A DNA stretch of 58,896 bases from Phormidesmis priestleyi BC1401 (GTDB lineage Bacteria; Cyanobacteriota; Cyanobacteriia; Leptolyngbyales; Leptolyngbyaceae). Positions within the stretch are counted from its first letter, which is position 1. Each line of letters begins with the position of its first letter. The stretch covers positions 1-58,896 of the forward strand of contig NZ_LXYR01000031.1 in assembly GCF_001650195.1 (NCBI RefSeq). The letters run 5' to 3'. The notes beneath the pieces are model-generated. The model searched no databases and was not told where the DNA came from. It saw nothing but the letters and a program-made list of their open reading frames with translations. Below, piece after piece: positions 10,536-29,897 of the stretch. The position numbers and the translations under genes were made by a program.

Positions 10536-11972
10536 ATGGCAACTCCTATTTACCAAGCTGTAATTCTGGGTGGTGGTTTTACAGGTCTGTTCGCGGCTCT
10601 GCATCTTAGCCATCAGCATTATCCACGCTCCGTCATTTTGATTGATCAAAACGATCGCTTCTGTTTCAAACCACTGCTATATGAATACTTCAGTGGTGAA
10701 ATGGATGCAGGACAGGTCATGCCCAGGTACGAAGAGCTACTACAACGTAGTGGAGTAATCTTTGTACAGGGAAGTGTGGAGTCGATCGATTTGCAGCAAC
10801 GGCAGATCCAACTGGTAGGTGGCGACTGCTATGGGTACAGCAATCTGGTTCTCGGCTTAGGAAGTGTGACCGGATATTTTAGTGTAGAAGGGGCGAAGGA
10901 GAATGCTCTGCCTTTTCGGACACAGGACGATGCGATCGCCATTGATCGGCATCTGCGAGATCGGCTGCAACGAGCAATTCAGCTACAAGATTCAGATCTG
11001 CGTCGTCGCTTGTTAACCACCATCGTGGTGGGAGGAGGACCGTCTGGGGTTGAGATGGCGGCAACTTTAGCAGATTTTCTGCCGCAGTGGTATGCCGAAT
11101 TGGGGGGGGATGTAGAAGAAGTCCGAGTGCTGCTGGTGAACCACGGAGAACTGCTCGAAGGGGATGTTAATAGCCAACTGCGGACAACAGCAGAGCAAGC
11201 GTTGCAAGAACGTGCTGTCCTTGTAGAGGTGATCATTGGAGCTAAAGTAACGGCTATTCATCTCGATCGCTTGGAGTATCAGCGCAATGACAAAACAGAA
11301 ACTCTAGATGCTGGAACGATCATTTGGACAACGGGAACGACTACCCATCCACTCATCAAGTCGTTGCCCATTCCAGATGAACATCGAGACAAACATGGGC
11401 GGTTGAGCGTCACCCCAACACTACAATTGCCTGATTTTCCAGAGGTTTTTGCAGGTGGGGATTGCGCGATGGATTTGCAGCCAAAATCAGGAAGTGGCGA
11501 TGCCTATGAGCCAGCGGAAAGCCAGTCGGATCAAACGACTAGTGCCGAAAACCATCATCCCAATCCAAAGCCCTTACCGCCAACGGCACAGGTCGCCTAT
11601 CAGCAGGGAGCAGCGATCGCCTATAACTTGTGCGCCTCAGCGTTGGGATATGCCTTGAAGCCTGCCAGAGTCAATTTGCGCGGAACCTTACTCAAGCTGG
11701 GATTGAACAACAGTGCTGCCAATATTTTTGACACGATTGAAGTCACAGGAGAAGTAGGACATCTGATTCGCCAAGGTACATATTTAGAGCTATTGCCGAC
11801 ACCAATTCATAACTTCAAAGCCACAACAGAATGGCTGAAGGATGAAGTGGTCGAACGCTACCAAACTAATAGCGTGAAGCAAGTTGTCAAAACGGCTGGG
11901 ATAGTCGGAGGTGTGGTGATGGGAGCCGCGATCGCCCGACGCATTGCCCGATCCCTATCGGACGATCGTTAA
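10536..11972 (+). CDS. type II NADH dehydrogenase (NDH-2), FAD-dependent
   Basis: 478 aa from ATG 10536 (the frame is open further upstream, but homology begins at MATPIYQAVILGGGFTG). It transfers electrons from NAD(P)H to quinone without pumping protons. The FAD-binding dinucleotide fold GGGFTGLFAALHL lies at the N-terminus, the NADH-binding fold VVGGGPSGVEMAATLADF at about residue 170, and the FAGGDCAMD motif at about residue 307. The C-terminus (VVKTAGIVGGVVMGAAIARRIA) could form an amphipathic membrane anchor. A poorly conserved insert (SGSGDAYEPAESQSD) follows the FAD motif. Neighbouring DUF2231 and cytochrome-oxidase genes fit a short respiratory chain. The 208 nt between the IS and this gene shows no other gene. 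Confidence 0.85.
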   Translation: MATPIYQAVILGGGFTGLFAALHLSHQHYPRSVILIDQNDRFCFKPLLYEYFSGEMDAGQVMPRYEELLQRSGVIFVQGSVESIDLQQRQIQLVGGDCYGYSNLVLGLGSVTGYFSVEGAKENALPFRTQDDAIAIDRHLRDRLQRAIQLQDSDLRRRLLTTIVVGGGPSGVEMAATLADFLPQWYAELGGDVEEVRVLLVNHGELLEGDVNSQLRTTAEQALQERAVLVEVIIGAKVTAIHLDRLEYQRNDKTETLDAGTIIWTTGTTTHPLIKSLPIPDEHRDKHGRLSVTPTLQLPDFPEVFAGGDCAMDLQPKSGSGDAYEPAESQSDQTTSAENHHPNPKPLPPTAQVAYQQGAAIAYNLCASALGYALKPARVNLRGTLLKLGLNNSAANIFDTIEVTGEVGHLIRQGTYLELLPTPIHNFKATTEWLKDEVVERYQTNSVKQVVKTAGIVGGVVMGAAIARRIARSLSDDR

Positions 11973-12088: not shown

Positions 12089-12164
12089 GACTTTCAGAAC
12101 CCTCATGGGAGATAGATAGTTAAATTCATTAAAGGAAATCTCCTTAGTTGAAGGTGAATCTGAT

Positions 12165-12356
12165 TTGGGGATTGCTGCGAAGCAAGTCCTGTCTCATCAA
12201 GCCTATATTGTAAATTGGTTTCTGGATGGCAATCAAGCATGGAGTTATCAGGCGATCGCGCAAAGGCATCAGGGTAGCATTCACGTTCACAGCCAGCTTG
12301 GAAAAGGCAGTACTTTTATAGTGCGGCTTCCTCTAAATCATGAGGTGTCTGCCTAA
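12165..12356 (+). pseudogene. histidine kinase, C-terminal ATPase fragment
   Basis: The readable 63 codons end with IAQRHQGSIHVHSQLGKGST and FIVRLPL, which is the last helix-strand unit (G2 box) of a HATPase_c domain. The rest of the kinase is absent and the preceding residues are unrelated. It is a remnant of a two-component sensor with no matching regulator nearby. Confidence 0.6.
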
Positions 12357-12467: not shown

Positions 12468-12962
12468 ATGTTTCATTTATCGCTTAATCAGCAGGGGCTT
12501 CCTTATCCTGATCCGCTTCACCCCATCATCGTTCACTTTGTGATTGCGATGGTATTTTTCTCGTTTATTTGTGATGTATCGGGTTACTTTACTCACCGAC
12601 CTCGTTTGTTTGAAGTTAGTCTCTGGAACTTAATTGTCGCTGCAATTTCGATTTTTCTCGCAGTCATATTTGGTCAATTTGAAGCAGGTCTAGCACAGCC
12701 TCAAGCAGCCGCTCAATCAACACTCAGTTTGCATACCATCATGGGTTGGTCTTTGGCTGCTTTTTTAGTTGCAATCACTGCTTGGCGTTTTGTCATGCGC
12801 CATCAAAATCCCTTGAAAGTTTCTCCGATTTATTTAGGAGTTACCACTCTTTTAACTTGTTTAGTATTTTTTCAAATGATGCTGGGAAGTCAACTCGTTT
12901 GGGTCTACGGTCTGCATGTAGAACCTGTGGTAGAAGCAACTGAACAAGGGCTTTTGAAATAA
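12468..12962 (+). CDS. DUF2231 integral membrane protein (first of pair)
   Basis: 164 aa with four predicted membrane segments (about residues 22-42, 55-75, 88-108 and 122-142). The opening QGLPYPDPLHPIIVHFVIA is the DUF2231 signature, including the HP-x-x-VHF motif whose histidines may bind a cofactor. It overlaps the second DUF2231 gene by one base. In cyanobacteria such pairs commonly accompany the alternative terminal oxidase operon, which is found here 4 kb downstream. Exact function is unknown. Confidence 0.75.
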   Translation: MFHLSLNQQGLPYPDPLHPIIVHFVIAMVFFSFICDVSGYFTHRPRLFEVSLWNLIVAAISIFLAVIFGQFEAGLAQPQAAAQSTLSLHTIMGWSLAAFLVAITAWRFVMRHQNPLKVSPIYLGVTTLLTCLVFFQMMLGSQLVWVYGLHVEPVVEATEQGLLK

Positions 12963-13546
12963 TGATATTACTGATGGATTTACCCGGATTAAAGCTAGGA
13001 GCAAATGGACTGCCTTACCCGATTCCTATTCATCCTCAGCTTGTTCACCTGACCTTAGGGCTGGTCATCATCGCCATCCTGTTTGACATTGCTGGAACGC
13101 TGTTTCCACTGGGAAAACCCATTTTTAAGTTTTTAGCACTTCCCGCCATTCGTGCAGGTTTTTATGAGGTTGGTTGGTACAACCTGGTAGGGGCGACAGT
13201 TATCACGTTTTTTACCATTGCGGCTGGCTTTTTTGAGCTGATGTTAGCGACTCCACCAACCAATCAAGTCAGCAATTGGGGTTTAGATGCCAAGTCAACG
13301 CTGTTGCTGCATGGATTGGGAGGCATTTTATTGCTGGCGGTGATCGTTGGAATGGCGGCCTGGCGGGGATTACAGCGCTACCGCTGGCGTAAAGATCGTC
13401 CTAGAGAGGTGCAATGGAGTTATTTACTGGTGGGCGTTGTTCTGCTAGGAGCGCTCTACCTGCATGGCACGCTGGGGGCACAATTGGGCGATGAATTTGG
13501 TATTCACAATACGACAGTTCATATATTGAGACATGGGAATGGTTAA
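12962..13546 (+). CDS. DUF2231 integral membrane protein (second of pair)
   Basis: 194 aa with four predicted membrane segments. ANGLPYPIPIHPQLVHLTLG repeats the DUF2231 signature. A conserved H-x-x-G helix (TLLLHGLGGILLLAV) follows. The start codon shares one base with the stop of the preceding gene (TAATG), so translation is probably coupled. The protein ends GIHNTTVHILRHGNG. A stray membrane-helix frame just downstream (13699-13818) could be a lost extension or another gene's end. Confidence 0.75.
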   Translation: MILLMDLPGLKLGANGLPYPIPIHPQLVHLTLGLVIIAILFDIAGTLFPLGKPIFKFLALPAIRAGFYEVGWYNLVGATVITFFTIAAGFFELMLATPPTNQVSNWGLDAKSTLLLHGLGGILLLAVIVGMAAWRGLQRYRWRKDRPREVQWSYLLVGVVLLGALYLHGTLGAQLGDEFGIHNTTVHILRHGNG

Positions 13547-13547
13547 T

Positions 13548-13694
13548 ATAACGTCCTGACCGAAGAATACTACGAACCGTTTGAAGAGCTGATATTAGCA
13601 TTATCAAGGTCACATTGAAATAATCAATTTTAGTGCGCTCATAGCCGATTAGTCCTTTACCTGCTTCAACCGCCTCGCAGTCTCCTTCCAACAT
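13548..13694 (-). other. unidentified coding remnant
   Basis: The minus strand reads MLEGDCEAVEAGKGLIGYER then TKIDYFNVTLIMLISAL without a stop. This looks like the tail of a protein, possibly a transposase, but I do not recognise it. It lies in the mosaic gap 13547-14492. Confidence 0.25.
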
Positions 13695-13698
13695 TCAA

Positions 13699-13818
13699 AA
13701 TGATCCCACTGTTGATCATGGTGGACAATTGATTATCTACGTTGGGCTTTCTCTACTTGTTGTCAGTATCACAGCGATCGTCGGGTTGAACATGCTCTCA
13801 TCACTGCATCAGCTTTAA
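13699..13818 (+). pseudogene. C-terminal fragment of a small membrane protein
   Basis: An open frame with no start reads NDPTVDHGGQLIIYVGL then SLLVVSITAIVGLNMLSSLHQL and TAA. This is one membrane helix preceded by an acidic, His-containing stretch. It has no ribosome site and is probably the severed end of a membrane protein of the same cluster. Confidence 0.35.
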
Positions 13819-13910
13819 GTTTGTGCTTAGTATCGTTGGTTGCTTTCGCAAGATGATGATAGTTGGGATGTTGAAGTCACTCCAACATTTTTCTATTCAC
13901 GATGGTTAGA

Positions 13911-14146
13911 TTAATGATGAGAAGTAGGTTCATCCATATAAGCCTAGACTGCTTCAAGGATGCGATCGCTGTTACTTGCTTGAGCCAGTACATCCTGACT
14001 TGCAGACGTGAGAATGAAACCGAACCCAACTTTAGCGCATAGATCGAGAATCGCGTAGCAGGCAGTTTCAGCTTCAACACTGAGCACTCGGAATCCTTCT
14101 GCACCCAAAATCCAGACGATCGGATAGCAAAACCACAGGGTTTTTG
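13911..14146 (-). pseudogene. microbial rhodopsin, C-terminal fragment with retinal-lysine helix
   Basis: Read on the minus strand from about 14146, the frame gives WFCYPIVWILGAEGFRVLSV (helix F to FG loop), then ETACYAILDLCAKVGFGFIL (helix G) and a tail SASQDVLAQASNSDRILEAV, TAG, AYMDEPTSHH, TAA. The D-x-x-A-K-V-G-F-G motif is the hallmark of bacteriorhodopsin-type proteins; K (codon 14031-14033) is the Schiff-base lysine. Helices A-E are missing and the upstream side abuts an IS4-type remnant. An in-frame TAG at 13944-13946 precedes the last residues. It is a dead remnant of a light-driven pump or sensor in a respiratory gene cluster. Confidence 0.75.
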
Positions 14147-14154
14147 CCTAGAGT

Positions 14155-14400
14155 CCATGCATCTCAAAGACCGAGACCGATTGAGGAAGCTCATCGCACT
14201 CCTGACCTTAACGTTCTGTTGGGCACATCGCCTTGGGCAGTGGTGTGTGGAACATCAGCCCCTCAAAATTAAAAAGCATGGATGCAAAGCCAGAAGTATT
14301 TTTCGCACTGGCTTTGATGTTCTCCGGCAGATTTTCCTGAATCTGCACAGCCAAAACTAGCAGTATCGACAAGCCCTAAATCTTTTGTCCTGGATTTAGA
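14155..14400 (+). pseudogene. IS4-family transposase remnant
   Basis: The frame 14157-14360 reads LKDRDRLRKLIALLTLTFCW, GQWCVEHQPLKIKKHGCKAR and SIFRTGFDVLRQIFLNL, the conserved end of cyanobacterial IS4-type transposases. After a frame change, QYRQALNLLSWI matches the usual last residues. Only this end survives. It marks the breakpoint that removed the rest of the rhodopsin gene. Confidence 0.65.
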
Positions 14401-14492: not shown

Positions 14493-15059
14493 ATGAAAAC
14501 TTCAACAAAACTCATTTTGACTCTTGTTGCGATCGGTACACTCGGACTTGGTGGTTTAGCCAAGCTGGTCAACGCTGCTCAAACTCAATCTCCGGTTGCC
14601 GTTATGCCCGCTGCTCAAGTGACCGAAAAAAGTGATGGAGATGGTGAAGCCAACCCTGCGACAGAAGTACCAGAAAACGCTTCTGTCTCTCAGCTTAAAG
14701 CCAGCAATCCGAAGGCGGAAAAGAGCGATGGAGACGGTGAAACCAATGATGATGCAAAGGGAACCCAGGAAGCTCAAACGCTGCAATCCTTTGCTAAAAT
14801 CACGCCTCAACAAGCTCAGCGATCGGCGGAAACGGCTGCAAAAGGAACTGCCAGCAGTATGAAACTGGAAAATGAAAACGGTAGTTTAGTTTATGCTGTT
14901 GCGATCGGGCAGAACGAAGTCATTGTGGATGCAGGCAATGGTACTGTCCTCGGTACAAGCACTCCAAACAGTGAGAGTGACGAGAAGACGCAACCCCGCA
15001 GCAGCGTTCAAGTTCCTCAATCGGCAGGTGATGGAGATGGCGAAACCAATGATGGTTAG
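14493..15059 (+). CDS. exported PepSY-like protein with acidic DGDGE repeats
   Basis: 188 aa. A signal peptide (LILTLVAIGTLGLGGLAKLVNA) precedes a disordered region. The acidic motif KSDGDGEANP, KSDGDGETND or GDGDGETNDG occurs three times, at about residues 46, 76 and 179. Between the second and third, ITPQQAQRSAETAAKGTASS and YAVAIGQNEVIVDAGNGTVL match the PepSY fold (helix plus strand pair). The DxDGE loops look like EF-hand-type calcium ligands, but that is inference. The gene has its own terminator downstream and stands just before a COG4705-type membrane gene. Confidence 0.65.
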   Translation: MKTSTKLILTLVAIGTLGLGGLAKLVNAAQTQSPVAVMPAAQVTEKSDGDGEANPATEVPENASVSQLKASNPKAEKSDGDGETNDDAKGTQEAQTLQSFAKITPQQAQRSAETAAKGTASSMKLENENGSLVYAVAIGQNEVIVDAGNGTVLGTSTPNSESDEKTQPRSSVQVPQSAGDGDGETNDG

Positions 15060-15158: not shown

Positions 15159-15920
15159 ATGAATAAACCGTTAAATAGGGTTCCAGAAATTACGATTTAT
15201 TTTTGGATCATCAAAGTTCTAGCAACTACAGTGGGCGAAACCGCAGCAGACTTTTTATCCACTACATTAGGGTTTGGGTTAGCGACGACTTCGTATATCA
15301 TGAGCGGCGTATTACTGATAGTACTACTCAATCAGTTTCGGCTAAAACGCTATGTTCCAGTCAGCTACTGGTTTGCGGTTGTGCTTGCTAGCATTGTGGG
15401 TACGCTGATCACGGACAGACTCGTGGATAAGCTTGGGGTGAGTTTAGTTACAACAAATATCATTTTTGGGGTTTCCTTAGCGATCGTTTTCGCTATCTGG
15501 TATGCCAATGAAAAGACTTTAGCAATGCACTCGATTCACACGGCAAAGCGAGAACTGTTCTACTGGATTGCGATTTTACTGGCGTTTGCATTAGGAACGG
15601 CGACCGGAGACTATCTCGCAGAGGCGTTGAACTTGGGCTATTTTCAAGCTTTACTGCTATTTGGGGCTGCGATCTCGCTGACAGCGATCAGCTACTATTA
15701 CTTGAGACTGAATGAAGTTCTAGCCTTTTGGATTGCCTACATTTTGACTCGTCCTTTAGGAGCATCACTAGGCGATTTGCTGACGCAACCTCGGTCAAAT
15801 GGCGGGTTTGGTTATGGTGCAACAAACACTAGCATCCTCTTCTTCTGTGTTATTTCAAGCTTAGTGATCTACTTGAGCCTAAAGCAAAAGCGGGCTAAAG
15901 CAAGCGTTTCTGACATTTAA
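15159..15920 (+). CDS. COG4705-type integral membrane protein
   Basis: 253 aa with about eight membrane segments. An internal repeat is visible: VGETAADFLSTTLGFGLATT, VGTLITDRLVDKLGVSLVTT, LGTATGDYLAEALNLGY and LGASLGDLLTQP each place a G-[ET]-x-x-[AG]-D motif in a helix. This quadruple acidic motif is typical of the COG4705 family of uncharacterised membrane proteins and suggests a cation path, which is inference. Its stop overlaps the end of the convergent permease remnant by 4 nt. Confidence 0.7.
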   Translation: MNKPLNRVPEITIYFWIIKVLATTVGETAADFLSTTLGFGLATTSYIMSGVLLIVLLNQFRLKRYVPVSYWFAVVLASIVGTLITDRLVDKLGVSLVTTNIIFGVSLAIVFAIWYANEKTLAMHSIHTAKRELFYWIAILLAFALGTATGDYLAEALNLGYFQALLLFGAAISLTAISYYYLRLNEVLAFWIAYILTRPLGASLGDLLTQPRSNGGFGYGATNTSILFFCVISSLVIYLSLKQKRAKASVSDI

Positions 15921-16290
15921 TGATGAGCATGATGACTACGCTGTTCATGCTTTTTGGTAGGATGATTCATCATCCGCAGTACATCAGGTTCTCCTGTCTT
16001 GACAAAGTGAGTCACGAGGATAACAGCCAGAACCAAGAAAACGATGCTGAGAATCGTTGTGTAGTTAAAACTAATGCCTGCATCTAAAACTTGAGCATTG
16101 CGATCGCTGGGCACCAGATGTAATAGCTGAAGCAACAGTTCAATGATGAATGCCGCGCCTGCCATTGCTGCTCAAAAGGTCGCCAGCATAAAGACACTCA
16201 TTTTGCCTGCGGTACGAGCTTTGGCTTCAGAAAAGCGCGAAAGAGCAGCACCAGTAAGAAGATCATCAAGGGACCCCCGACGAACCCTAC
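15917..16290 (-). pseudogene. permease (ArsP/YraQ, DUF318-like), degenerate C-terminal part
   Basis: Reading down from 16290 gives LVGFVGGPLMIFLLVLLFRA then FLKPKLVPQA, characteristic of the predicted permease family. After an internal deletion it continues AGKMSVFMLATF, a TGA stop at about 16164-16166 and AAMAGAAFIIELLLQLLHLVP, ending ISFNYTTILSIVFLVLAVIL with a His-rich tail (HEQRSHHAHH). In family members the stop position is usually Tyr (TFYAAMA). The central membrane domain is lost, so the gene is dead. Confidence 0.65.
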
Positions 16291-17075
16291 CAGCGTAAAA
16301 AGTTGGCGGCTTGCAAAATCGCCACTAGATCCACATCCTTTTCGACTAGACAGGCATGACCGCTATGGGGCAAGGTAAAAACCTGTGTATTAGGGAAGAC
16401 TTTAGCGAGTCGATATGCTTCATTCACTGAAGGCAAAAGATGATCGTTTTGACTACCGATTACCAACACTGGCTGAGTAATTTTCTGTAGCTTTATTTCA
16501 TCAGTTTTGAACGTTCTGAGCAACTCTAAGCGCTGTTCTGCGGTTCGCTTGGGAGCATCTTGGGTTGCTTTGATTAGAGCATTACGAGCTTTTGGAGATA
16601 ACCGCGTGATTTGAGCCAGAAAAGGCAACGCCAGTATTGAGGAAAAATCGTAAAAAAATTGAGGTGTCCAGGAAAGCAGAAACGAACCGAGATTCAGCAA
16701 CGGAACGCGGTGAAACGAAGAAGCTGAATTGATTAAAATAATGCGATCGTACAGTTCAGGAGCTTGTGTCAGTGCGGTGAGTGCCACACAAGTTCCAAAC
16801 GATTCGCCACAGAGGTAAACCGATCGTGGTGCTTTCTCAAGTTCAGCTTTGGTTAAGGCAATCAATTGTTGTGCAAGTGAGTCCCAGCTATCGAGAGCAT
16901 CGGCAGGAATGACGAAGCAACGGACATCAAATACAGCCTCCAGTCCAGCCGTTTGAAGTGTCATCAACTCTTTTCCAGTTTCGTCCATCCCTGGTAGAAA
17001 TACAAACAGTGGTCGGTTTGAATCGGACTGGAAAGGACTAAAAAAGTAAGGTTTACAAGATGTGAAATGAGTCAT
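16287..17075 (-). CDS. alpha/beta hydrolase
   Basis: 262 aa, soluble. FVFLPGMDETGKEL gives the oxyanion-side loop, CGESFG (about residue 91) the nucleophile elbow with serine, IGSQNDHLLP (about residue 206) the acidic residue, and LPHSGHACLVEKD (about residue 236) the catalytic histidine, so a complete triad is present. It resembles the cyanobacterial and plastid esterase/acyltransferase-like hydrolases, but the substrate cannot be read from the sequence. It is preceded by a 327-nt non-coding stretch and divergent from the oxidase operon. Confidence 0.75.
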   Translation of the reverse strand: MTHFTSCKPYFFSPFQSDSNRPLFVFLPGMDETGKELMTLQTAGLEAVFDVRCFVIPADALDSWDSLAQQLIALTKAELEKAPRSVYLCGESFGTCVALTALTQAPELYDRIILINSASSFHRVPLLNLGSFLLSWTPQFFYDFSSILALPFLAQITRLSPKARNALIKATQDAPKRTAEQRLELLRTFKTDEIKLQKITQPVLVIGSQNDHLLPSVNEAYRLAKVFPNTQVFTLPHSGHACLVEKDVDLVAILQAANFLRW

Positions 17076-17489: not shown

Positions 17490-18413
17490 ATGTTAAAGAT
17501 TCTCGAATACTTTCTGCTAGCTATCTTCATCGCTGGGCTGATGCTTATCAGTCGCTGGATGGGGCAGCAAGCCTATACCTGGATGCCGCCTCAGGCAACT
17601 GCAGAAGCTCAACGCGTAGATGATTTATTTAGTTTTTTGGTGTCTATTGGCACATTTGTGTTGCTGGGGTTAGTCGGCATGATGCTCTACTCTGTTTTAT
17701 TCTTTCGGGCGAAGCCGGATGACTACAGTGAAGGGCATCCGGCTAGAGGCAGTGTGAAGCTGGAAATTCTCTGGACAGTCGCTCCAACGCTGCTAGTGCT
17801 GTGGATTGCGGCTCAAGATATTAATATCTATAGCCAACTCAACATTTTGGGGCTTCAACAAATTGTCCATCATTCTCTCGATTCTCCTGCCTACGCTGCT
17901 ACAGACACTCCAAATTCCGCTTCAGATTATCCCAAACCTGCAACCGAACAAATTCAGGTGATGGCGAAACAGTGGGAATGGGCATTTCGCTATCCGAACC
18001 AAATCACCAGCCATGAATTGCATTTACCTGTGAATGAAAGAACTCGGCTGGATTTGCGGGCAAAAGAAGTGATTCACGGATTTTATGTGCCAGCTTTTCG
18101 CCTTAAACAAGATATTATTCCCGGACGTGATATTGATTTAGTTGTAACGCCGAACCGGGTAGGTAAATATCGTCTGCAAGACTCGCAGTATAGCGGCACC
18201 TACTTTGCATTAATGACAGCGGATGTGTATGTGGAGTCGAGAGATGCTTACAATCAGTGGCTGGCTGCGACGGCTCAACAGCCCCTTGATGGAACGAATC
18301 CAACCATTGCAGAACAACTGCATCCGCCCAAAACGCTGTTCAAAACGGGATGGAATCCGACATCGACTGAATCGATCGCCAAATCCGCTCCGGTTCAGGG
18401 GGGTGACTCATGA
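17490..18413 (+). CDS. ctaC: terminal oxidase subunit II, ARTO type lacking CuA ligands
   Basis: 307 aa from ATG 17490; the frame is open back to ATG 17403, but those 29 residues are polar and look non-coding, whereas MLKILEYFLLAIFIAGLM begins the first membrane helix. A second helix (FLVSIGTFVLLGLVGMMLYS) is followed by a periplasmic cupredoxin-like domain. Where CuA subunits have a C-x-x-x-C pair, this protein reads RLQDSQYSGTYFALMTADVY, with no cysteine. Loss of CuA is known for the alternative respiratory terminal oxidase of cyanobacteria, thought to take electrons from quinol. It overlaps ctaD by 4 nt. Confidence 0.85.
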   Translation: MLKILEYFLLAIFIAGLMLISRWMGQQAYTWMPPQATAEAQRVDDLFSFLVSIGTFVLLGLVGMMLYSVLFFRAKPDDYSEGHPARGSVKLEILWTVAPTLLVLWIAAQDINIYSQLNILGLQQIVHHSLDSPAYAATDTPNSASDYPKPATEQIQVMAKQWEWAFRYPNQITSHELHLPVNERTRLDLRAKEVIHGFYVPAFRLKQDIIPGRDIDLVVTPNRVGKYRLQDSQYSGTYFALMTADVYVESRDAYNQWLAATAQQPLDGTNPTIAEQLHPPKTLFKTGWNPTSTESIAKSAPVQGGDS

Positions 18414-20083
18414 ATAATTCCTTGATCGGTCGCGGCAGCAACGACCCTGAATCTGCTCAAGCCGAAGCGATCACCTGGCGACACATTCTTCGCTTTAGCA
18501 CCGATCATAAAGTGATCGGTGTGCAATACATGATCACGACATTCATCTTTTTTCTGATTGGCGGCTTGATGGCAATGTTCGTGCGGGCAGAACTGATGAC
18601 ACCTGAGTTAAATCTGGTCGATCGCCCCCTCTACAACGCGCTCTTTACCCTGCATGGCACGGTAATGATTTTCCTGTGGATTATTCCCTTTAACGCAGGA
18701 CTGTCAAACTATTTGGTGCCCTTGATGATTGGGGCGCGAGATATGGCGTTTCCACTGCTGAATGCGATTTCGTTCTGGATCATTCCTCCGGCTGGACTGC
18801 TGCTCATCTCCAGTTTTCTGCTGCCCAACGGTCCAGCTCAGGCAGGGTGGTGGTCTTATCCGCCCGTAAGTTTTCAAGCTCCATCTGGACAACTGGTTTG
18901 GATTATCAGCGTGATGCTACTGGGCATTTCTTCCATCATGGGAGCCGTGAATTTTATCACCACGATCGTTTGGCTCCGGGCACCCGGCATGACCTTCTTT
19001 CGGATGCCCGTCTTTGTCTGGTCGGTTCTCAGTGCTCAACTGCTGCAACTGATTAACCTGCCATCGCTCACCGGAGCACTGATCTTACTCATGTTTGATC
19101 TGGCGTTTGGGACAAGCGTTTTCAAACCGTCGGAGGGCGGCGATCCGATCATTTATCAACATCTCTTCTGGTTCTATTCTCATCCTGCCGTTTACGTGAT
19201 GGCGCTGCCTGCGTTTGGCATTATTGCCGAGGTGCTACCTGCGTTTTCCCGTAATCCCTTGTTTGGCTATCGATCGTTGGCGATCGCGTCTTTAGGCATT
19301 GCGATGGTTAGCATCTTTGTTTGGGCGCACCATATGTTTGCCAGTGCCACACCAGAATGGATGCGAATTCTGTTTGTTATCACCTCAATGCTGGTCGCTG
19401 TGCCGACTGGAGTCAAGGTATTTGGGTGGACTGCAACCATCTGGCGAGGCAAGCTGCATCTGGATACACCCATGCTGTTTGCGATGGGTGGCGCTGCCAT
19501 GTTCATTTTTGCGGGCATTACGGGTGTCATGCTCGCGTCCAATGCTTTTGATCTTCATGTCAATAATACTTACTTTGTAGTGGGACATTTTCACTACATC
19601 GTCTTCAATACCATCACAATGGCAATCTTTGCTGCCGTTTACTTCTGGTTTCCTAAAATTACGGGACGGATGTATGCCGAAGGATGGGGTAAACTACATT
19701 TCTGGCTGACGTTTATTGGGGCAAATCTAACGTTTTTCCCCATGCATCCATTGGGCTTACAGGGCATGGTGCGTCGGATTGCTTCCTATCCACCAGAATA
19801 TCAGGGCTGGAATATCCTTGCCAGTTTAGGAGCCTTTTTACTGGGAGTGTCAACCTTACCTTTCATTGCTAATATGATTGGCTCGGTATTGGATGGACCC
19901 AGAGCAACGGACAATCCGTGGGAGGCAACGGGTCTGGAATGGACAACCTCCTCGCCTCCGCCCAGAGAGAACTTTGCCGAAATTCCTCAAGTGATTTTTC
20001 CACCCTACAACTATGGTAATCCCATAGCCTACGGCGAAGGCACTGTAACCCAATCAGGGGAGGAAGGCTCTAACGATGAGTAA
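18410..20083 (+). CDS. ctaD: terminal oxidase subunit I, heme-copper catalytic subunit
   Basis: 557 aa, 12 membrane helices. Expected metal ligands are visible: TLHGTVMIF (low-spin heme His, about residue 81), SHPAVYVMALP (CuB His with cross-linking Tyr, about residue 257), WAHHMFAS (CuB His pair, about residue 304) and VVGHFHYIVFN (heme a3 and low-spin heme His, about residue 391). It reduces oxygen to water at the plasma or thylakoid membrane. It overlaps ctaC (ATGA) and ctaE (8 nt), so the three are one operon. Length is normal for ARTO subunit I. Confidence 0.9.
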   Translation: MNNSLIGRGSNDPESAQAEAITWRHILRFSTDHKVIGVQYMITTFIFFLIGGLMAMFVRAELMTPELNLVDRPLYNALFTLHGTVMIFLWIIPFNAGLSNYLVPLMIGARDMAFPLLNAISFWIIPPAGLLLISSFLLPNGPAQAGWWSYPPVSFQAPSGQLVWIISVMLLGISSIMGAVNFITTIVWLRAPGMTFFRMPVFVWSVLSAQLLQLINLPSLTGALILLMFDLAFGTSVFKPSEGGDPIIYQHLFWFYSHPAVYVMALPAFGIIAEVLPAFSRNPLFGYRSLAIASLGIAMVSIFVWAHHMFASATPEWMRILFVITSMLVAVPTGVKVFGWTATIWRGKLHLDTPMLFAMGGAAMFIFAGITGVMLASNAFDLHVNNTYFVVGHFHYIVFNTITMAIFAAVYFWFPKITGRMYAEGWGKLHFWLTFIGANLTFFPMHPLGLQGMVRRIASYPPEYQGWNILASLGAFLLGVSTLPFIANMIGSVLDGPRATDNPWEATGLEWTTSSPPPRENFAEIPQVIFPPYNYGNPIAYGEGTVTQSGEEGSNDE

Positions 20084-20747
20084 TTCATCCCGACCTAGAC
20101 TTGTTCATGCTGATGAAAGCCCGATCGACCTCGAACGCCTGCGGCACAGGTTTCCCCACTGGCTTCAACGATTTTTACCAAGCGGAGGGGGTAGCCATGA
20201 AGATCATCATGGCAAAGGAATGTTTGGATTTACAGTATTTCTGCTGTCAGAAAGCATCATTTTCTTGAGTTTCTTCTTCACTTACACTGTACTCCGACTC
20301 ACAACTCCGAATTGGCTGCCTCCAGGAGTTTCAGGACCAGAGTTATCTACTTTTGTCATCATCAACACGGTAATCCTGCTTTCTAGTAGTGCTGTCATTC
20401 AATTTGCAGAACGATCGCTCAGTCGTCATCATCTGAATAAATTTCGCGTGTTGTGGCTGTTGACTTCTCTAATGGGAACCTACTTTTTAGTTGGGCAAGG
20501 CATTGAATGGAGCCAACTCAATTTTGGGTTGAAAACGGGTTTGGTTGGTGCAACGTTCTATATCTTGACGGGCTTTCATGGCTTGCACGTTTTCAGCGGG
20601 GTAATTTTACAGATAATTATGCTGGTGCGATCGTTCACTCCCAATAACTACAGCAACGGTCACTTTGGAGTAAGCGCAACGACGCTGTTTTGGCACTTCG
20701 TCGATGTCATTTGGATGATCTTATTTTCACTTTTGTATATTTGGTAA
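20076..20747 (+). CDS. ctaE: terminal oxidase subunit III
   Basis: 223 aa with five membrane helices, the number typical of short bacterial subunit III. Landmarks: KGMFGFTVFLLSESIIFLSF (first helix with the conserved Glu) and GFHGLHVFSGVIL (about residue 168), then FWHFVDVIWMILFSLLYIW at the end. It starts 8 nt before the end of ctaD, which implies translational coupling. The CDF gene follows after 6 nt and may be in the same transcript. Confidence 0.88.
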   Translation: MSNSSRPRLVHADESPIDLERLRHRFPHWLQRFLPSGGGSHEDHHGKGMFGFTVFLLSESIIFLSFFFTYTVLRLTTPNWLPPGVSGPELSTFVIINTVILLSSSAVIQFAERSLSRHHLNKFRVLWLLTSLMGTYFLVGQGIEWSQLNFGLKTGLVGATFYILTGFHGLHVFSGVILQIIMLVRSFTPNNYSNGHFGVSATTLFWHFVDVIWMILFSLLYIW

Positions 20748-22667: not shown

Positions 22668-23591
22668 CTACTGCATCCTATAAGTATTCAAACCGATCGT
22701 GTACAGCGAATGCCCAGCGGCAATAATCAAGCGATCGCGATTTTTTCCACCAAACGTCAGATTAGCAACGGTTTCTGGCACTAGAATTTTACCGAGGTGC
22801 GTTCCATCCGGTGCATATACTTGCACACTATCTTCAGAACTGATAAAAACATTGCCGTGCTCATCAATACTTAAGCCATCAGGCTGACCCGGATCAATCA
22901 CGGCAAACACGCGACCATTGATGGCGTTTTGACCCTCTACAACTTCGTAGATGCGAACATGATGGTAACCCTCAGAAAGGTCGAAAGCAGAAGAGTCTGA
23001 CACGTACAATAGTTGTTCATCTGGATTAAAAGCCAATCCATTGGGACGCAGCATATCTGTTATTACAGCATCTATTTCACCTGTTGCCGGATCAAAGCGA
23101 TAGACATAACTTCCGGGTTGTTCTTGCTCACCACCATAGCCTTGATTCGGTTCTGTAATTCCATAGGGTGGATCGGTAAACCAGATGGTGCCATCGCGTT
23201 TGACGATTAAATCATTCGGACTATTCAGGCGTTTCCCCTGATAGCGATCGCACAACACTTGCCATTGTCCATTATACTCTTGTCGAATAATGGCGCGTAA
23301 ACCCGATGAACAAGAGACTAGCCGCCCTTCTAGATCGTGGTCATTCCCATTCTGGTAATCCGATGGATCGCGCAAAACGCTGAGTCCATCACTTGCACTC
23401 CAGCGCAGTAACCGATTACCGTGATCATCACTCCAAACGATGCTGTCATCTTCCCGACAATAAACAGGTCCTTCGCTATGAACCGCACCATCGGTCAGCT
23501 TTTGGAGTGAAGCCCCTGGGCGAATTAGCGATCGCATTCGATCGTCATAGATTTCAATCGCGTTGGGTAGCATCTCGATTGCTTCTGCCAT
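22668..23591 (-). CDS. SMP-30/gluconolactonase-family lactonase
   Basis: 307 aa, a six-bladed beta-propeller that hydrolyses sugar lactones using a divalent metal. Metal ligands of the family are visible: Glu in VHSEGPVY (about residue 36), Asn in RLNSPNDLIVK (about residue 124) and RPNGLAFNPD (about residue 182), and Asp in LYVSDSSAF (about residue 197). It heads a minus-strand group with the two-domain VOC protein upstream (18-nt gap) and DoxX. The divergent sugar-dehydrogenase (SDR) gene makes an aldonolactone route plausible: SDR oxidises a sugar and this enzyme opens the lactone. Confidence 0.82.
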   Translation of the reverse strand: MAEAIEMLPNAIEIYDDRMRSLIRPGASLQKLTDGAVHSEGPVYCREDDSIVWSDDHGNRLLRWSASDGLSVLRDPSDYQNGNDHDLEGRLVSCSSGLRAIIRQEYNGQWQVLCDRYQGKRLNSPNDLIVKRDGTIWFTDPPYGITEPNQGYGGEQEQPGSYVYRFDPATGEIDAVITDMLRPNGLAFNPDEQLLYVSDSSAFDLSEGYHHVRIYEVVEGQNAINGRVFAVIDPGQPDGLSIDEHGNVFISSEDSVQVYAPDGTHLGKILVPETVANLTFGGKNRDRLIIAAGHSLYTIGLNTYRMQ

Positions 23592-23609
23592 AAAAACCTC
23601 CTGAGCTTT

Positions 23610-24554
23610 TTAATCTTTTGGCTCCGCAACTAGCAACATAGAATGTCCAGTCGGATCTTTTACTAGATAACCCTGTTGAGATCCGCGATCGTCAAATTGT
23701 ACAGGCGAAACTTGAAGATGATGTTGTTGGAGTTGCTTTACTGCCTGGTTAATGTCGCTGACAGTTAGTTCAACTTGAACATAAGCAAGGTCATCGCTTT
23801 TCAGATCGAAGGGAATCGGACGACCATTGGCGGGTTGAATGTAATCTAACAGTTCAATTCCTAATCCTTCTTGAGCTGGTCGTAGCGCTGTAATGCGGAC
23901 TTTTGCATTGGGCAAATCGTCCATACGGGCTTGGGTTTCTCGCCAATTAAAACTGCCACCCTCAACCTGCATTCCCAAACGATCACGATAAAACTGGAGG
24001 CTTTGCTCAGTATTGGCAACGGCGATCGCCGTATGGTCAATACCTAAAAACAAGCGGTCATTTTTTTGATGCCATTTCTCCCGTCCTTTGTTTGGTGGGA
24101 ACCAGATCAGTTCTAAGGGATGGCGATCGGGATCTCTAAACTTAAACGCCTGAATATAAGCGGCTTCTTTATTTCCGGGAGGAATGGTTTGGGGAGCGGT
24201 TGAAATAGGTTCGATCGGAAACGCTTGAAGATGGGCATAGGCACGATCCATATCGCTAACGACGATCGCCAAATGCTGAAACCATAAATCATTACTTTGC
24301 GAATCCAGAGGAATAGATTTTCCTTTGATATCAAGATACTGTTTGAGTCGAATCCGCTCTTCACCCAGTTTCAAGGTAATGATCCGCATTCTGGATGGGG
24401 GCATTGCTGCCAGATTGACATACTCTTTGCCGTCAATGGCATCAGAAACTACTTCAAAACCAAGTGCTTTTGTATAAAACTCTCCGGAACGATCGGCATT
24501 AGCAACAGTTAAACTAATGGCTTGAATTCGTTGTGCCTGAATCAATGAATCCAT
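23610..24554 (-). CDS. two-domain VOC (glyoxalase/dioxygenase-like) protein
   Basis: 314 aa with two vicinal-oxygen-chelate modules. Residues about 8-150 start with QAISLTVANADRSGEFYTKA and contain WFQHLAIVVSDMDRAY; residues about 168-310 start with GIDHTAIAVANTEQSLQFYR. Each module begins with an H-x-A/S-x-x-V strand and ends with a D-P-D/T-G-H strand (FRDPDRHPLELIW; VKDPTGHSMLLV). It may be a ring-cleaving or isomerising metal enzyme, or a binding protein. It lies 6 nt downstream of the DoxX gene and 18 nt upstream of the lactonase, so one operon is likely. Confidence 0.75.
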   Translation of the reverse strand: MDSLIQAQRIQAISLTVANADRSGEFYTKALGFEVVSDAIDGKEYVNLAAMPPSRMRIITLKLGEERIRLKQYLDIKGKSIPLDSQSNDLWFQHLAIVVSDMDRAYAHLQAFPIEPISTAPQTIPPGNKEAAYIQAFKFRDPDRHPLELIWFPPNKGREKWHQKNDRLFLGIDHTAIAVANTEQSLQFYRDRLGMQVEGGSFNWRETQARMDDLPNAKVRITALRPAQEGLGIELLDYIQPANGRPIPFDLKSDDLAYVQVELTVSDINQAVKQLQQHHLQVSPVQFDDRGSQQGYLVKDPTGHSMLLVAEPKD

Positions 24555-24560
24555 AAATCT

Positions 24561-25103
24561 TTATTTGAATAAAAGTGCATCAAGTGAAAATGCGCCGGGA
24601 CCAAAAATTGCGATCGCCATCAACATCAAGCAATATATAAAGGCTTTCTCCCAATTGGGTGGCTCACCCTTACCCTTGGGTCCTTCGTACTGTCCTTTAG
24701 GAATTAAGTAGGGGTCGCGGGCAACGAAGGGTGAGCCTTGAATAATTTCCAGATAGGCAGCAAATGCCATCAACACAAAGAGGACTGCACTCGCTAGAGG
24801 AGTGAGTAGTCCCAAAATCAGGCAAACGCCGCCTACTAACATGGACAGCGCTGAGAGGAAGCACAAAAATACAGGCATTTTGAGCGCCTTTGCCCACTGC
24901 TGTAAATGCGTGATTTTTGGGTAGCCATGCAGCAGAAACAGCACTCCTGTCCCCACACGCAGTAAAAGCAGCGTGATCCCCTCCACCCCAGATGGGAAGC
25001 CTGTATAAAGCCTGCTCAAAACATTTAGCCCTGGAATATGAGATACGCTGCTACTTGTGAGTAGGACAGCGACGGCAAGACCGATCGCAAATTTGTAGAT
25101 CAT
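24561..25103 (-). CDS. DoxX-family membrane protein
   Basis: 180 aa with four membrane helices. EGITLLLLRVGTGVLFLLHG (helix 1), LSALSMLVGGVCLILGLLTP and SAVLFVLMAFAAYLEI match the DoxX/DoxD-like family. The family includes thiosulfate:quinone oxidoreductase subunits, but most members are of unknown role. It is the first gene of the minus-strand group, divergent from the SDR gene across a 202-nt promoter region. Confidence 0.75.
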   Translation of the reverse strand: MIYKFAIGLAVAVLLTSSSVSHIPGLNVLSRLYTGFPSGVEGITLLLLRVGTGVLFLLHGYPKITHLQQWAKALKMPVFLCFLSALSMLVGGVCLILGLLTPLASAVLFVLMAFAAYLEIIQGSPFVARDPYLIPKGQYEGPKGKGEPPNWEKAFIYCLMLMAIAIFGPGAFSLDALLFK

Positions 25104-25172
25104 GATTCGTCATCAAAATTGATTACAGTCATATAGGGGTAGAGATAGTAATGACATAGAACTCTCAATTCT

Positions 25173-25188
25173 ATTAGAGAAATCTAAT
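25173..25188. promoter_or_regulatory. operator-like palindrome in divergent promoter region
   Basis: ATTAGA-GAAA-TCTAAT is a perfect 6-bp inverted repeat between the divergent doxX and SDR genes. It may bind a regulator shared by both sugar-oxidation groups. No regulator gene adjoins it. Confidence 0.4.
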
Positions 25189-25305
25189 AATGAAATTGAC
25201 GTGAAATAAGCCTAAGCCAAACGGGAGAAGTACCACTTAAGTCTTATGGTAGAGGTTTTGTTAAGTTTTGCCCTCTAGGCTAAGGTAGAACTCTCTAGCA
25301 CACCA

Positions 25306-26118
25306 ATGAGCTATTCTCCCTGTTTACTCAAAGGTCAAAAAGCGCTGGTCACTGGCGCAAGCTCTGGTCTTGGTGAAGCTTCGGCAAGATGCTTGGCGAA
25401 AGCAGGTGCAGCGGTTGTTGTTAACTACCATTCCGAGAAAGAAGAGGCAGAATCGATCGTTCACGATATTGTTGCTGACGGTGGAGAGGCGATCGCCATT
25501 GGTGCCAACGTTGCCAAAGAAGATGGAGTCAAGACAATGTTCGCTCAGATGCTGCGGGAGTTTGGCACGATCGATATTTTGGTCAACAATGCCGGACTCC
25601 AAAAAGATGCTGCCTTTGTCGATATGACATTAAATGACTGGAATCTGGTCATCAACGTCAACCTCACAGGACAATTTCTTTGCGCTCGTGAAGCGGCAAA
25701 AGAATTTTTGCGCCGGGGTGTAAAACCAGATGTGTCTTGTGCTGCTGGCAAGATCATTTGCATGAGTTCGGTGCATCAGGTGATTCCCTGGGCAGGACAC
25801 GTCAACTATGCGACCAGTAAAGGTGGCATTGATATGTTGATGAAAAGTATGGCGCTGGAACTGGCACCGCAAAAAATTCGGATTAACAGCATTGCACCGG
25901 GCGCGATCGAAACTCAGATCAACACCGCTGCCTGGAGTACACCAGAAGCAAAAGCGAAATTGCTGCAATTGATTCCCTCTGGTCGAGTGGGTATTCCTGA
26001 TGACATTGGCAAAGCAGTGGTTTGGTTAGCATCCGATGATTCTGATTATGTCAACGGGACAACGCTGTTTGTGGATGGTGGCATGACGCTCTATCCTGGT
26101 TTTGCTAAAGGTGGGTAG
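25306..26118 (+). CDS. short-chain dehydrogenase, glucose-1-dehydrogenase-like
   Basis: 270 aa, Rossmann fold. TGASSGLGEASARCL (about residue 17) binds NAD(P); NNAG follows at about residue 95. The catalytic Ser is in CMSSVHQ (about residue 155) and the YxxxK pair in NYATSKGG (about residue 168). Overall pattern, including the GAIETQINTAAW region after the active site, is closest to glucose/aldose 1-dehydrogenases. It is first in a plus-strand operon: the glycosidase starts 3 nt after its stop. Confidence 0.8.
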   Translation: MSYSPCLLKGQKALVTGASSGLGEASARCLAKAGAAVVVNYHSEKEEAESIVHDIVADGGEAIAIGANVAKEDGVKTMFAQMLREFGTIDILVNNAGLQKDAAFVDMTLNDWNLVINVNLTGQFLCAREAAKEFLRRGVKPDVSCAAGKIICMSSVHQVIPWAGHVNYATSKGGIDMLMKSMALELAPQKIRINSIAPGAIETQINTAAWSTPEAKAKLLQLIPSGRVGIPDDIGKAVVWLASDDSDYVNGTTLFVDGGMTLYPGFAKGG

Positions 26119-26121
26119 ATC

Positions 26122-28248
26122 ATGCCAACAAAAGTTTCGGTAAATTCGGGTCAAATTGCGATTAATGATGGTTCTACATTTCTTGTCACCGATTCCTATG
26201 GTTGGATTGATGACACATTAGCGCAGGGGTTTTTTGTTGCCGATACGCGCTTACTTTCTTACTATGAGGTATCGATCAACCGCGATCGCATACTCCTGCT
26301 TGCCTCTAGCCCGATCAACCATCACAGTGCATTTTACCAGTTCACCAATCCTCAATTTCGTACCGTCAATGGTACAGTTCCAAATGGTCGATTAATGATC
26401 GGCATACGCCGCGATATTGTCGGTGGAATGCACGAAGATATTGATATTACGAATCATCATTCAGAACAAGTTGATTTTCAATTAATGCTGGCGATTCGCT
26501 CCGATTTTGCTGACATCTTTGAAGTAAAGTCGCAGCAAATCTTGACGCGCGGTGAAGCTGAAACGGTTTGGCAAGACGGGAAATTGATCACGGATTACCA
26601 CAATGGTTCGTTCCATCGTGGATTGATTACCCAGCCAGAATCCGCCAGTTCTCAACCTCGCTATGCCAACGGTCGCCTGCTCTTTGATGTGGTGCTTGCT
26701 CCGGGAGAGTCGTGGCACACCTGCATTAACTTTGCGGCGATCGTGGGTGATAAAACGATTTATCCTCAACAAACCTGTGCAGTAGAACATGATACGGAAG
26801 CCAAACAGGTCAGCAAGGATTTTCTCGCTCAAGCGACTCAGCTACGATCGTCCAATGCCGAAATTGCGGCTTATTACCAGCAAGCTTTGCTCGATATGTC
26901 CGCCCTGCGAATTAAAGTTGAGGGTAATGGGCGCGACTTTTGGATGCCTGCGGCAGGAATTCCCTGGTTCGTCGCCGTGTTTGGTCGCGATTCTGTTGTA
27001 GTTAGTATGCAAACGATGGCGGTGTACTATGGGTTTGCTCATGGAACATTGCTGCAACTGGCGCAACTGCAAGCCACAGAAGTGGATGATTGGCGGGATG
27101 CCCAACCGGGAAAGATGCCGCATGAACTGCGCCATGATGAATTAACAGAACTCAAGCAACTCCCTTATACGCCCTATTACGGCACGATCGACACCACAAT
27201 TCTTTGGATTACAACGCTGGCAGAGGCGTATCAATGGAGTCATAACGAGAATTTACTGTACGATTGCCGCGATCCTCTGGCAAAAGCATTGACCTGGATC
27301 GATCAGTATGGCGATTCTGACCAGGATGGGTTTGTGGAGTATCAAACTCGCTCTTCGATGGGTTTGCGAAACCAGGGTTGGAAAGATTCTGGGGATGCGA
27401 TCGTCTATCCTGATGGTACTCAGGTTGATCCGCCGATCGCGCTCTGTGAGGTGCAGGGCTATGTCTACAGTGCTTGGAAAGATGCAGCAACGATTTATGA
27501 CATTCTGGGAGAGCCGGAGCAGGCAAAACGACTACGACAGAAAGCAGACGACCTGTATCAGCGCTTTAACGATCGCTTCTGGATGGAAGATGAAGGCTTT
27601 TATTGTCTTGGCTTAGATAGCAAAAAGCAACAAATTCGTTCGGTCGCCTCGAATCCCGGACATTTGTTGTGGTCAGGTATTGTGCCTAAAGAACGCGTCG
27701 ATCGCCTGGTTAAACGACTCTTTCAGCCCGATCTCTGGTGTGGTTGGGGCATTCGTACCTTGTCTAGCCGCAACCCTGCTTATAATCCGATCAGCTATCA
27801 ACTGGGGAGCGTGTGGCCTCACGATAATTCGGCGATCGCGATGGGCTTGAAACAGTATGGCTATCACCAGGAAGCCAACCAGATCGCGGAAGGAATTTTT
27901 GCCGCTGCCAGCTATTTTGAAGCGGGACGGATGCCTGAACTGTTTGGTGGCATGGAACGCAAACCTGGGCATTTTCCCGTTCCTTATCCCGATGCCAACA
28001 TTCCGCAAGCCTGGGCTGCTGGCTCAATCTTCCTGTTGATTCGCGCCATGTTAGGGCTGGAAGTCAATGCAGCGGATCGATCTCTCACCGTCCAACCCGT
28101 TTTACCCGATTGGTTGCCCGATCTGGAATTGGTAAATTTGCGCGTCGGAAACGCAACGATAACACTACGTTTCTGGCGCGAAGAAGAACAAACCCAATGG
28201 AAAGTGATGCACCTGGAGGGTAAATTGACGGTATCTGCCAGACATTAA
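26122..28248 (+). CDS. amylo-alpha-1,6-glucosidase / glycogen-debranching-type enzyme
   Basis: 708 aa. Residues about 12-215 form the N-terminal beta domain found in bacterial debranching-type proteins (DSYGWIDDTLAQGFFVADTR, then RDIVGGMHEDIDITNH). Residues about 250-640 form an (alpha/alpha)6 barrel, with FGRDSVVVSMQTM, YYGTIDTTILWI and KDSGDAIVYPDG. VWPHDNSAIAMGL near residue 565 is typical of the GH15/GH63-like fold. It probably releases glucose from a branched glucan or glucoside. Located between sugar dehydrogenase and GMC oxidoreductase, it may feed a sugar-oxidation pathway. Confidence 0.78.
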   Translation: MPTKVSVNSGQIAINDGSTFLVTDSYGWIDDTLAQGFFVADTRLLSYYEVSINRDRILLLASSPINHHSAFYQFTNPQFRTVNGTVPNGRLMIGIRRDIVGGMHEDIDITNHHSEQVDFQLMLAIRSDFADIFEVKSQQILTRGEAETVWQDGKLITDYHNGSFHRGLITQPESASSQPRYANGRLLFDVVLAPGESWHTCINFAAIVGDKTIYPQQTCAVEHDTEAKQVSKDFLAQATQLRSSNAEIAAYYQQALLDMSALRIKVEGNGRDFWMPAAGIPWFVAVFGRDSVVVSMQTMAVYYGFAHGTLLQLAQLQATEVDDWRDAQPGKMPHELRHDELTELKQLPYTPYYGTIDTTILWITTLAEAYQWSHNENLLYDCRDPLAKALTWIDQYGDSDQDGFVEYQTRSSMGLRNQGWKDSGDAIVYPDGTQVDPPIALCEVQGYVYSAWKDAATIYDILGEPEQAKRLRQKADDLYQRFNDRFWMEDEGFYCLGLDSKKQQIRSVASNPGHLLWSGIVPKERVDRLVKRLFQPDLWCGWGIRTLSSRNPAYNPISYQLGSVWPHDNSAIAMGLKQYGYHQEANQIAEGIFAAASYFEAGRMPELFGGMERKPGHFPVPYPDANIPQAWAAGSIFLLIRAMLGLEVNAADRSLTVQPVLPDWLPDLELVNLRVGNATITLRFWREEEQTQWKVMHLEGKLTVSARH

Positions 28249-28283
28249 CAACAATAAAGAAATAACAATAAAGGGGCGATCGG

Positions 28284-29861: not shown

Positions 29862-29897
29862 ATAGGCAAAATACAACAATTTTAGGAGGCAGCAGCG

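Follow-up and report, generated by a model that had tools for sequence, protein, structure and literature searches.

The question raised by this locus is whether a short rhodopsin-like piece on the minus strand, lying among respiratory genes, is what remains of a rhodopsin gene, and whether that gene once belonged to the cluster in which it is found. The DNA analysed, hereafter the window, is a stretch of 58,896 nucleotides from Phormidesmis priestleyi BC1401; genomes are labelled with G-numbers, G000 being the genome of the window, and contigs with C-numbers after a colon. The piece was annotated as a cyanorhodopsin (CyR) pseudogene remnant (13911..14138, minus strand) from its PF01036 match, its matches to PDB entries 6lm0 and 6lm1, a protein alignment with a tree, and a nucleotide alignment. 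Its coding content corresponds to CyR from about codon 174 to the stop, and from 14138 down to 13911 it reads LWFCYPIVWILGAEGFRVLSVEAETACYAILDLCAKVGFGFILTSASQDVLAQASNSDRILEAV-stop-AYMDEPTSHH-stop. The sequence-only reading of the DNA had described helices F–G with the retinal-binding Lys and a full C-terminal tail. Helix G is indeed retained whole with its Schiff-base Lys (codon 14031–14033), but only the second half of helix F is left, if the helix limits are presumed to be those of bacteriorhodopsin. The tail is not full: an in-frame TAG (13944–13946) cuts it, and past this codon the homologous tail, ending in AYMDEPTSHH, goes on to the final TAA (13911–13913) in the alignment with intact CyRs. 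The extent first proposed, 13911–14146, was correct as far as 14138; from about 14139 on the sequence belongs to a transposase, and the residues K and T preceding LWF are derived from it and lie outside the rhodopsin homology. Instead of seven helices, half of F and G are left, and no other rhodopsin part was found anywhere in the window by tblastn with CyR. The rest of the rhodopsin is gone from the window, as had been stated; elsewhere in the genome there are three open-frame rhodopsins. The window feature is not a rhodopsin but what a rhodopsin gene left behind: the CyR gene of the window is dead, a pseudogene.

The searches show that the fragment is a real piece of a rhodopsin. PF01036 matched it with an E value of 7.2e-15 and 55.5 bits (Pfam cut-off 24.6), and no other Pfam family matched at E up to 0.1. 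The top solved structures were 6lm0 (E 3e-28) and 6lm1 (E 8e-23), both titled only 'Rhodopsin', which we take to be the cyanorhodopsins N2098R and N4075R; the 60 PDB matches listed of 122 are all named as rhodopsins or rhodopsin-type pumps, so that neither Pfam nor the listed structures offered a better match to a non-rhodopsin membrane protein, the outcome that had been named as a refutation. Three CyR queries scored 94, 100 and 106 bits at the relic, far above the best score in 20 shuffled windows (27.7), and its DLCAKVGFG motif aligns with intact CyRs, the retinal Lys and its surroundings being retained. A tree was built from 17 rows of CyR, chloride-pump-type and sensory-type rhodopsins, xanthorhodopsin-type rows being left out, with the fragment covering 31% of the columns and Nostoc sp. 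106C as the sole recognised CyR row. The fragment and the intact CyRs of G039 and G000:C82 formed one group (97/98), and the CyR group including the fragment and Nostoc sp. 106C was recovered with 92/96, separate from the chloride-pump group. PMC7541481 puts a Nostoc sp. 106C rhodopsin in the CyR clade. Judged by sequence, the fragment is a cyanorhodopsin; its place within the CyR group is tentative, the surviving piece being short (64–77 aligned residues). Of the intact genes at the loci that the family search gave, the CyR of G039 is the nearest (80% over 55 residues), and in the tree the relic, the G039 CyR and the C82 CyR form a group of three without a resolved pair.

At the broken end, CyR homology stops at 14138 and gives way to transposase homology from about 14139, so that the break joins CyR codon ~174 to the interior of a DDE transposase gene. 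The transposase remnant (IS4-like, plus strand, 14139..14400 with an approximate right end) comprises only the C-terminal quarter and was delimited with longer relatives: its ORF 14157–14360 matches longer transposases, many of which have open frames of about 350–380 aa. It matches a copy at G000:C63 at 75% and a 353-aa relative carrying PF01609 at 73%; Pfam gave nothing for the 67-aa piece taken alone at E up to 0.1. The left end of the element, with any terminal inverted repeat there, is deleted. The earlier statement that an IS4-type remnant marks the break is supported by these longer relatives and by PF01609 in the one tested. The best other copy of the remnant in its own genome is the one at 75%, and misassembly through a repeat is unlikely, since no near-identical copy exists there. 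The N-terminal part of CyR was not found by tblastn on the far (right) side of the transposase remnant. Elsewhere in the window, an IS4/5-type transposase split over two reading frames (DUF4096, DDE_Tnp_1) lies at 9528–10300, just before the NDH-2 gene, and ORF 36748–37158 reads like the same transposase.

The neighbourhood of the relic is also decaying. A gene for a membrane protein of ~83 aa, here called s83, was located by tblastn with the G035 copy at 13620..13856 (plus strand); it has lost its start (ATA) and carries frameshifts, one frame matching at 66.7% identity over 45 residues and another at 68% over 25, and s83 comes after a pair of DUF2231 genes in G035, G032 and G030. Further upstream, 12144..12332 (plus strand) holds the remnant of a response regulator and a histidine kinase, the N-terminus of one protein being joined in frame to the C-terminus of the other by a deletion. 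It was recognised from two adjoining stretches that match the intact pair occupying the same place in G030, one at 80% over 35 residues and the other at 78% over 27, and pairs of the same family adjoin CyR at five other loci.

The genes around the relic make up an island, all on the plus strand unless stated otherwise. It includes what we read as an NDH-2 type NAD(P)H dehydrogenase (10536..11972; Pyr_redox_2, E 6.3e-32), relatives of which precede the DUF2231 pair in G032, G030 and G180, followed in the window by two DUF2231 proteins, a (12468..12962) and b (12962..13546), both with PF09990. On the other side of the relic are a PepSY-domain protein (14493..15059; PF03413) and a DUF347 membrane protein (15159..15920; PF03988), a pair that separates s83 from ctaC2 in the window and is absent from that place in G035 and G032; the DUF347 protein has four DUF347 repeats and its PepSY neighbour carries SDGDGE repeats. 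A minus-strand gene at 16287..17075, read as alpha/beta hydrolase-like, is related, with matches at 75% and 59%, to genes that lie near ctaC2DE in G039 and on the contig of the Nostoc 106C CyR. The oxidase genes follow: ctaC2 for subunit II (17490..18413; COX2 domains), ctaD2 for subunit I (18410..20083) and ctaE2 for subunit III (20076..20747), the last two being labelled by reading and having relatives at 86–91% beside ctaC2 and at 80–86% beside ctaD2, respectively, in G032, G035 and G039. When ctaC2 was aligned with 2yev_B, FCAELC of the latter was paired with QDSQYS. No Cys follows the HGFYVP motif in ctaC2 of the window, G035, G180 and G333, and a like stretch was found in G174 and G039; the CuA cysteines are replaced in the window ctaC2 and in the five relatives compared. 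A sugar-oxidation part (22668..30233, given here without strand) also belongs to the island, with SMP30/gluconolactonase, glyoxalase-like, DoxX, SDR, glucan-debranching-like, GMC oxidoreductase and glycine zipper genes. Pfam supports SMP30, DoxX, SDR and GMC, the match to the glycine zipper is below threshold, and the glyoxalase-like and glucan-debranching-like labels are readings. Several of these families flank CyR in G388, G603 and G039.

A second CyR relic was found in G035, which belongs to a different genus. There, DUF2231, DUF2231, s83, ctaC2, ctaD2 and ctaE2 are contiguous, and the 524 bases from s83 to ctaC2 hold a decayed CyR piece, HAIFDLCGGVGFGLILTPASQDAVAQASNSARILETAH. Its interval and orientation are those of the window relic, and in both the C-terminal end faces s83. 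The two relics are identical at 78 of 99 nucleotides and have the tail motif DEP..H in common, in a different frame; in the G035 relic the Lys is replaced by Gly. The differences between the window relic and the intact G039 CyR (37 nucleotides in 55 codons) are distributed over codon positions 1, 2 and 3 as 7, 6 and 24, and those between the two relics (23 in 33 codons) as 4, 4 and 15. Because they are mostly at third positions, selection probably acted on the gene over a large part of the period after the two lines separated, and its death came late. Compared with the G039 CyR, the G035 relic shows 6, 5 and 12 differences at the three positions with 16 of 26 residues identical, whereas the window relic shows 3, 2 and 12 with 23 of 26 identical; by this measure the G035 relic is the more decayed one, and the deaths of CyR in the two lines were perhaps separate.

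An intact rhodopsin between the DUF2231 genes and ctaC, for which a look at relatives had been suggested, was not encountered. None lies between s83 and ctaC2 in G035 or G032, or between DUF2231/s83 and ctaC2 in the other ctaC2 genomes that have both on one contig (a comparison that excludes G039, G030, G174 and Nostoc 106C, where the blocks are on separate or short contigs; the intact CyR of G039 is 84 bases from a contig end); at this place there are only the relics of the window and G035. G032, with DUF2231b 81–82% identical, has the same gene order up to a truncated copy of ctaC2, its intact ctaC2DE being on another contig, and the ~155 bp between s83 and the truncated ctaC2 contain no rhodopsin piece. 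The s83 gene follows ctaE2 in G333, G374, G231, G243 and G338, and GH15 and ZIP genes separate it from ctaC2 in G180. As relics of two genera lie in one place, an ancestral CyR probably stood there, inside this cluster; we infer its presence from two genomes, given that G032 lacks a rhodopsin piece and that no intact CyR occupies the exact position. The proposal that the gene was once embedded in the respiratory cluster is most likely correct in view of the position and orientation of the G035 relic; it is also supported by two further genomes in which rhodopsins of other clades, two in all, adjoin ctaC2DE (see below).

The same proposal had treated the fragment as the trace of a retinal protein that the lineage once had. 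In fact, the lineage still has a CyR and two more rhodopsins: besides the relic, the genome contains three intact genes of three clades, namely a CyR (G000:C82, L034:5108-5854; best match 6lm0), a chloride-pump-like rhodopsin (G000:C124, L002:259-963; best match 6k6i) and a xanthorhodopsin-like rhodopsin (G000:C133, L003:454-1365; best match 6nwd, Gll0198). A recent duplication of the C82 CyR as the origin of the relic is ruled out by their identity of 61.6% over 73 residues. A plasmid origin was also considered and rejected: the plasmid collection gave no DNA match, and each of the 12 plasmid records that the C82 CyR matched is less than 60% identical to it. The genome has two genes of the RPE65 carotenoid-oxygenase family, which are no proof of retinal use, since the family was also matched in 2 of 14 control genomes.

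From these results a history of the locus may be proposed, and we hold it with considerable confidence: the fragment is a dead CyR, an ancestral CyR having stood in the island of NDH-2, DUF2231, oxidase and sugar-dehydrogenase genes and having later been truncated by way of a transposase gene. In the ancestor, CyR would have been a minus-strand gene whose 3' end faced that of s83 and which diverged from the ctaC2DE operon of the CuA-less oxidase. Going by its family, the living protein would have been a retinal-binding, light-driven outward proton pump, and would have added to the proton gradient of a membrane also charged by the respiratory chain. The transposase gene may then have come in on the 5' side, in or beside the CyR gene, and a deletion from CyR codon ~173 into the transposase gene would have taken helices A to mid-F together with the gene start; a TAG also arose near the end of the tail. 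In G035 the same gene would have decayed by another path, on which the Lys was lost. With an intact CyR and two other rhodopsins elsewhere, the loss may have been bearable for the cell. The piece remaining in the window cannot make a pump.

How far rhodopsins accompany this oxidase was examined in a class sample of 388 genomes, 15 of which have a close ctaC2 (E up to 1e-95); neighbourhoods were viewed in all 15, a second, weaker ctaC match at G039:C365 being left out. A rhodopsin gene or relic lies beside the oxidase in four of the 15, the window included: two have CyR relics, one has a relic of the halorhodopsin type, and one has an intact gene like that of Anabaena sensory rhodopsin. In the other 11, the stretches examined beside the oxidase showed no rhodopsin. 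The relic of G174 (L123:4982-5164), of the chloride-pump type, sits on a contig of 5,995 bases, ~730 bases upstream of ctaC2, from which it diverges; its N-terminus is fused in frame to its C-terminus, the internal part being lost. In G180, of another family, an intact rhodopsin of 276 residues (L122:921-1751; best match 1xio, E 1.5e-94) accompanies ctaC2DE (L122:2936-6172), sharing its strand and lying ~1.2 kb downstream of ctaE2. When the window is not counted, rhodopsins or relics occur at 3 of 16 island loci (14 genomes) and at 0 of 40 control regions (p 0.020), the latter being taken at regular or hand-chosen positions in eight of these genomes and not as a true random draw. A rhodopsin is present in 7 of the 15 close-ctaC2 genomes versus 66 of the 373 others (p 0.011), assuming that both searches drew the same 388 genomes; both tests use small numbers and ignore the kinship of the genomes. 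Within 100 kb, a rhodopsin and ctaC of any type were found together, by eye, only on the window's contig among 42 genomes of the family, and a rhodopsin and close ctaC2 only on G000:C31 and G180:C132 in the class sample.

These data bear first on the strongest competing explanation, which we regard as possible though doubtful: that the rhodopsin was a functional member of the island, sharing its regulation with the CuA-less oxidase and travelling as a set with it. It would account for the presence of rhodopsin genes or relics, from three clades in all, next to ctaC2DE in 4 of 15 genomes, and the higher frequency of rhodopsins in close-ctaC2 genomes is in its favour, although these genomes are related and the test with p 0.011 is not independent. 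Against it, the core of DUF2231, ctaC2DE, s83 and NDH-2 stands together without a rhodopsin in G333, G374, G231, G243 and G338. With several islands of this kind, and with no rhodopsin seen beside the oxidase in 11 of 15 genomes in the stretches examined, the transfer as a set put forward by the sequence-only reading is not supported; repeated gain and loss fits better. Because the core often stands without it, the rhodopsin is best seen as an optional part of the island, passenger or partner, that has been acquired and lost more than once.

The surroundings of CyR genes in other genomes bear on the same explanation. In Nostoc 106C the neighbours are a ZIP transporter, glycine zipper, HPP, DUF1622, GMC oxidoreductase, SMP30, DoxX, glyoxalase-like and SDR genes; in G603 they are glycine zipper, HPP, DUF1622, GMC, SMP30, DoxX, glyoxalase-like and NDH-2 genes; and in G039 CyR comes after DoxX, SDR, GMC, glycine zipper and GH15. 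Between 10.5 and 30.2 kb the window has relatives of most such families, but not of ZIP, HPP, DUF1622 or GH15. GMC and DoxX occur nearby at 3 of the 11 CyR loci outside the window versus 0 of 21 loci of other rhodopsins. The response-regulator/kinase pair lies beside CyR at 5 of 11 loci versus 0 of 21, or at 4 of 10 without the C82 locus, from which the pair marker was taken; this marker and that for HPP/DUF1622 derive from two of the 11 CyR loci and match themselves there. A debranching-type match (48%), not counted in the tests, was seen at 1 of the 21 control loci. The stretches compared were 6.8–19.9 kb per CyR locus and 12.5–18.5 kb per control locus. Four of the 11 CyR loci (G023:C730, G371, G392 and G389) have none of the markers, and ctaC2DE was found within the stretch examined at 0 of 11. 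The CyRs elsewhere point partly in the same direction. A one-family regulator/kinase pair beside CyR at five loci and again in the NDH-2/DUF2231 block of G030 counts in favour of a co-regulated set, whereas the separate contigs of CyR and ctaC2 in Nostoc 106C speak against it.

Breakage of CyR is common and not peculiar to the window. Only about the N-terminal half is left of the CyRs of Calothrix PCC 7716 and 7103, truncations which, having the same reading, may go back to one event. The CyR of G603 (L066:8831-11233) is split by ~1.6 kb containing a 457-aa ORF, perhaps a mobile element, and the second CyR copy of G023 has a frameshift.

It is improbable that the CyR piece was a chance passenger, brought by a transposon or a rearrangement and never a gene of this cluster. 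The transposase remnant adjoining the relic, and the 11 of 15 close-ctaC2 genomes with neither rhodopsin nor relic beside the oxidase in the stretches examined, are compatible with such an arrival; however, a passenger would hardly be met again in G035 in the same interval and orientation, its C-terminal end likewise facing s83, in a genome that nowhere matches the transposase piece of the window at E up to 1e-8, and the CyRs of Nostoc 106C, G603 and G039 sit with several families of the same island. An origin of the fragment from a non-rhodopsin membrane protein is scarcely conceivable given PF01036 as its sole Pfam match, rhodopsins or rhodopsin-type pumps throughout the listed structure matches, and the retained surroundings of the retinal Lys.

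If the preferred history, an ancestral CyR of the island that was later truncated, is set beside the other rhodopsins near ctaC2, a broader idea may be put forward, tentatively and as one more likely to fail than to hold: the island of the CuA-less oxidase would be a recurrent home of rhodopsins (proton pump, chloride pump and sensory type), and these an exchangeable light-driven or light-sensing module working with the oxidase, which would have come and gone repeatedly as the light regime changed. The joint use of light and respiration suggested earlier is a possible coupling. To our knowledge, the role of rhodopsins in cells that already have chlorophyll is an open question; if true, the link of rhodopsins of three clades to one island of CuA-less oxidase and sugar dehydrogenases would supply a concrete partner to test. 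The relics also indicate that rhodopsin genes die repeatedly in cyanobacteria, in one case at a place shared by two genera. The open-licence papers searched gave no account of the genes around CyR, and the words cytochrome, neighbor and flanking are absent from the main texts of the CyR papers PMC7541481 and PMC11528372.

Several known systems can be compared with the locus. The alternate respiratory terminal oxidase (ARTO) of cyanobacteria has a subunit II without CuA ligands. The window has a second ctaCDE set whose subunit II lacks the CuA cysteines, a likeness to these features at the level of sequence, and its oxidase is possibly an ARTO. The relic itself is closest to CyR, the cyanobacterial proton-pump clade of PMC7541481 (solved structures 6lm0 and 6lm1), by best sequence match and by its grouping with the Nostoc sp. 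106C rhodopsin; it differs in having no start, no helices A to mid-F and a stop in the tail, and the DTD/DTE motif of CyR, which sits in helix C, is deleted from it. The intact CyR of G000:C82 shares the clade and a similar tail with the relic (EAYLNEPTSRR versus (stop)AYMDEPTSHH), but the identity of the two is limited to the value given above, and the C82 gene adjoins an intact response-regulator/kinase pair, not ctaC2DE. The Anabaena sensory rhodopsin-like gene of G180 resembles the relic in standing beside the same oxidase operon, but it is of another clade, is intact and lies on the opposite side of the operon.
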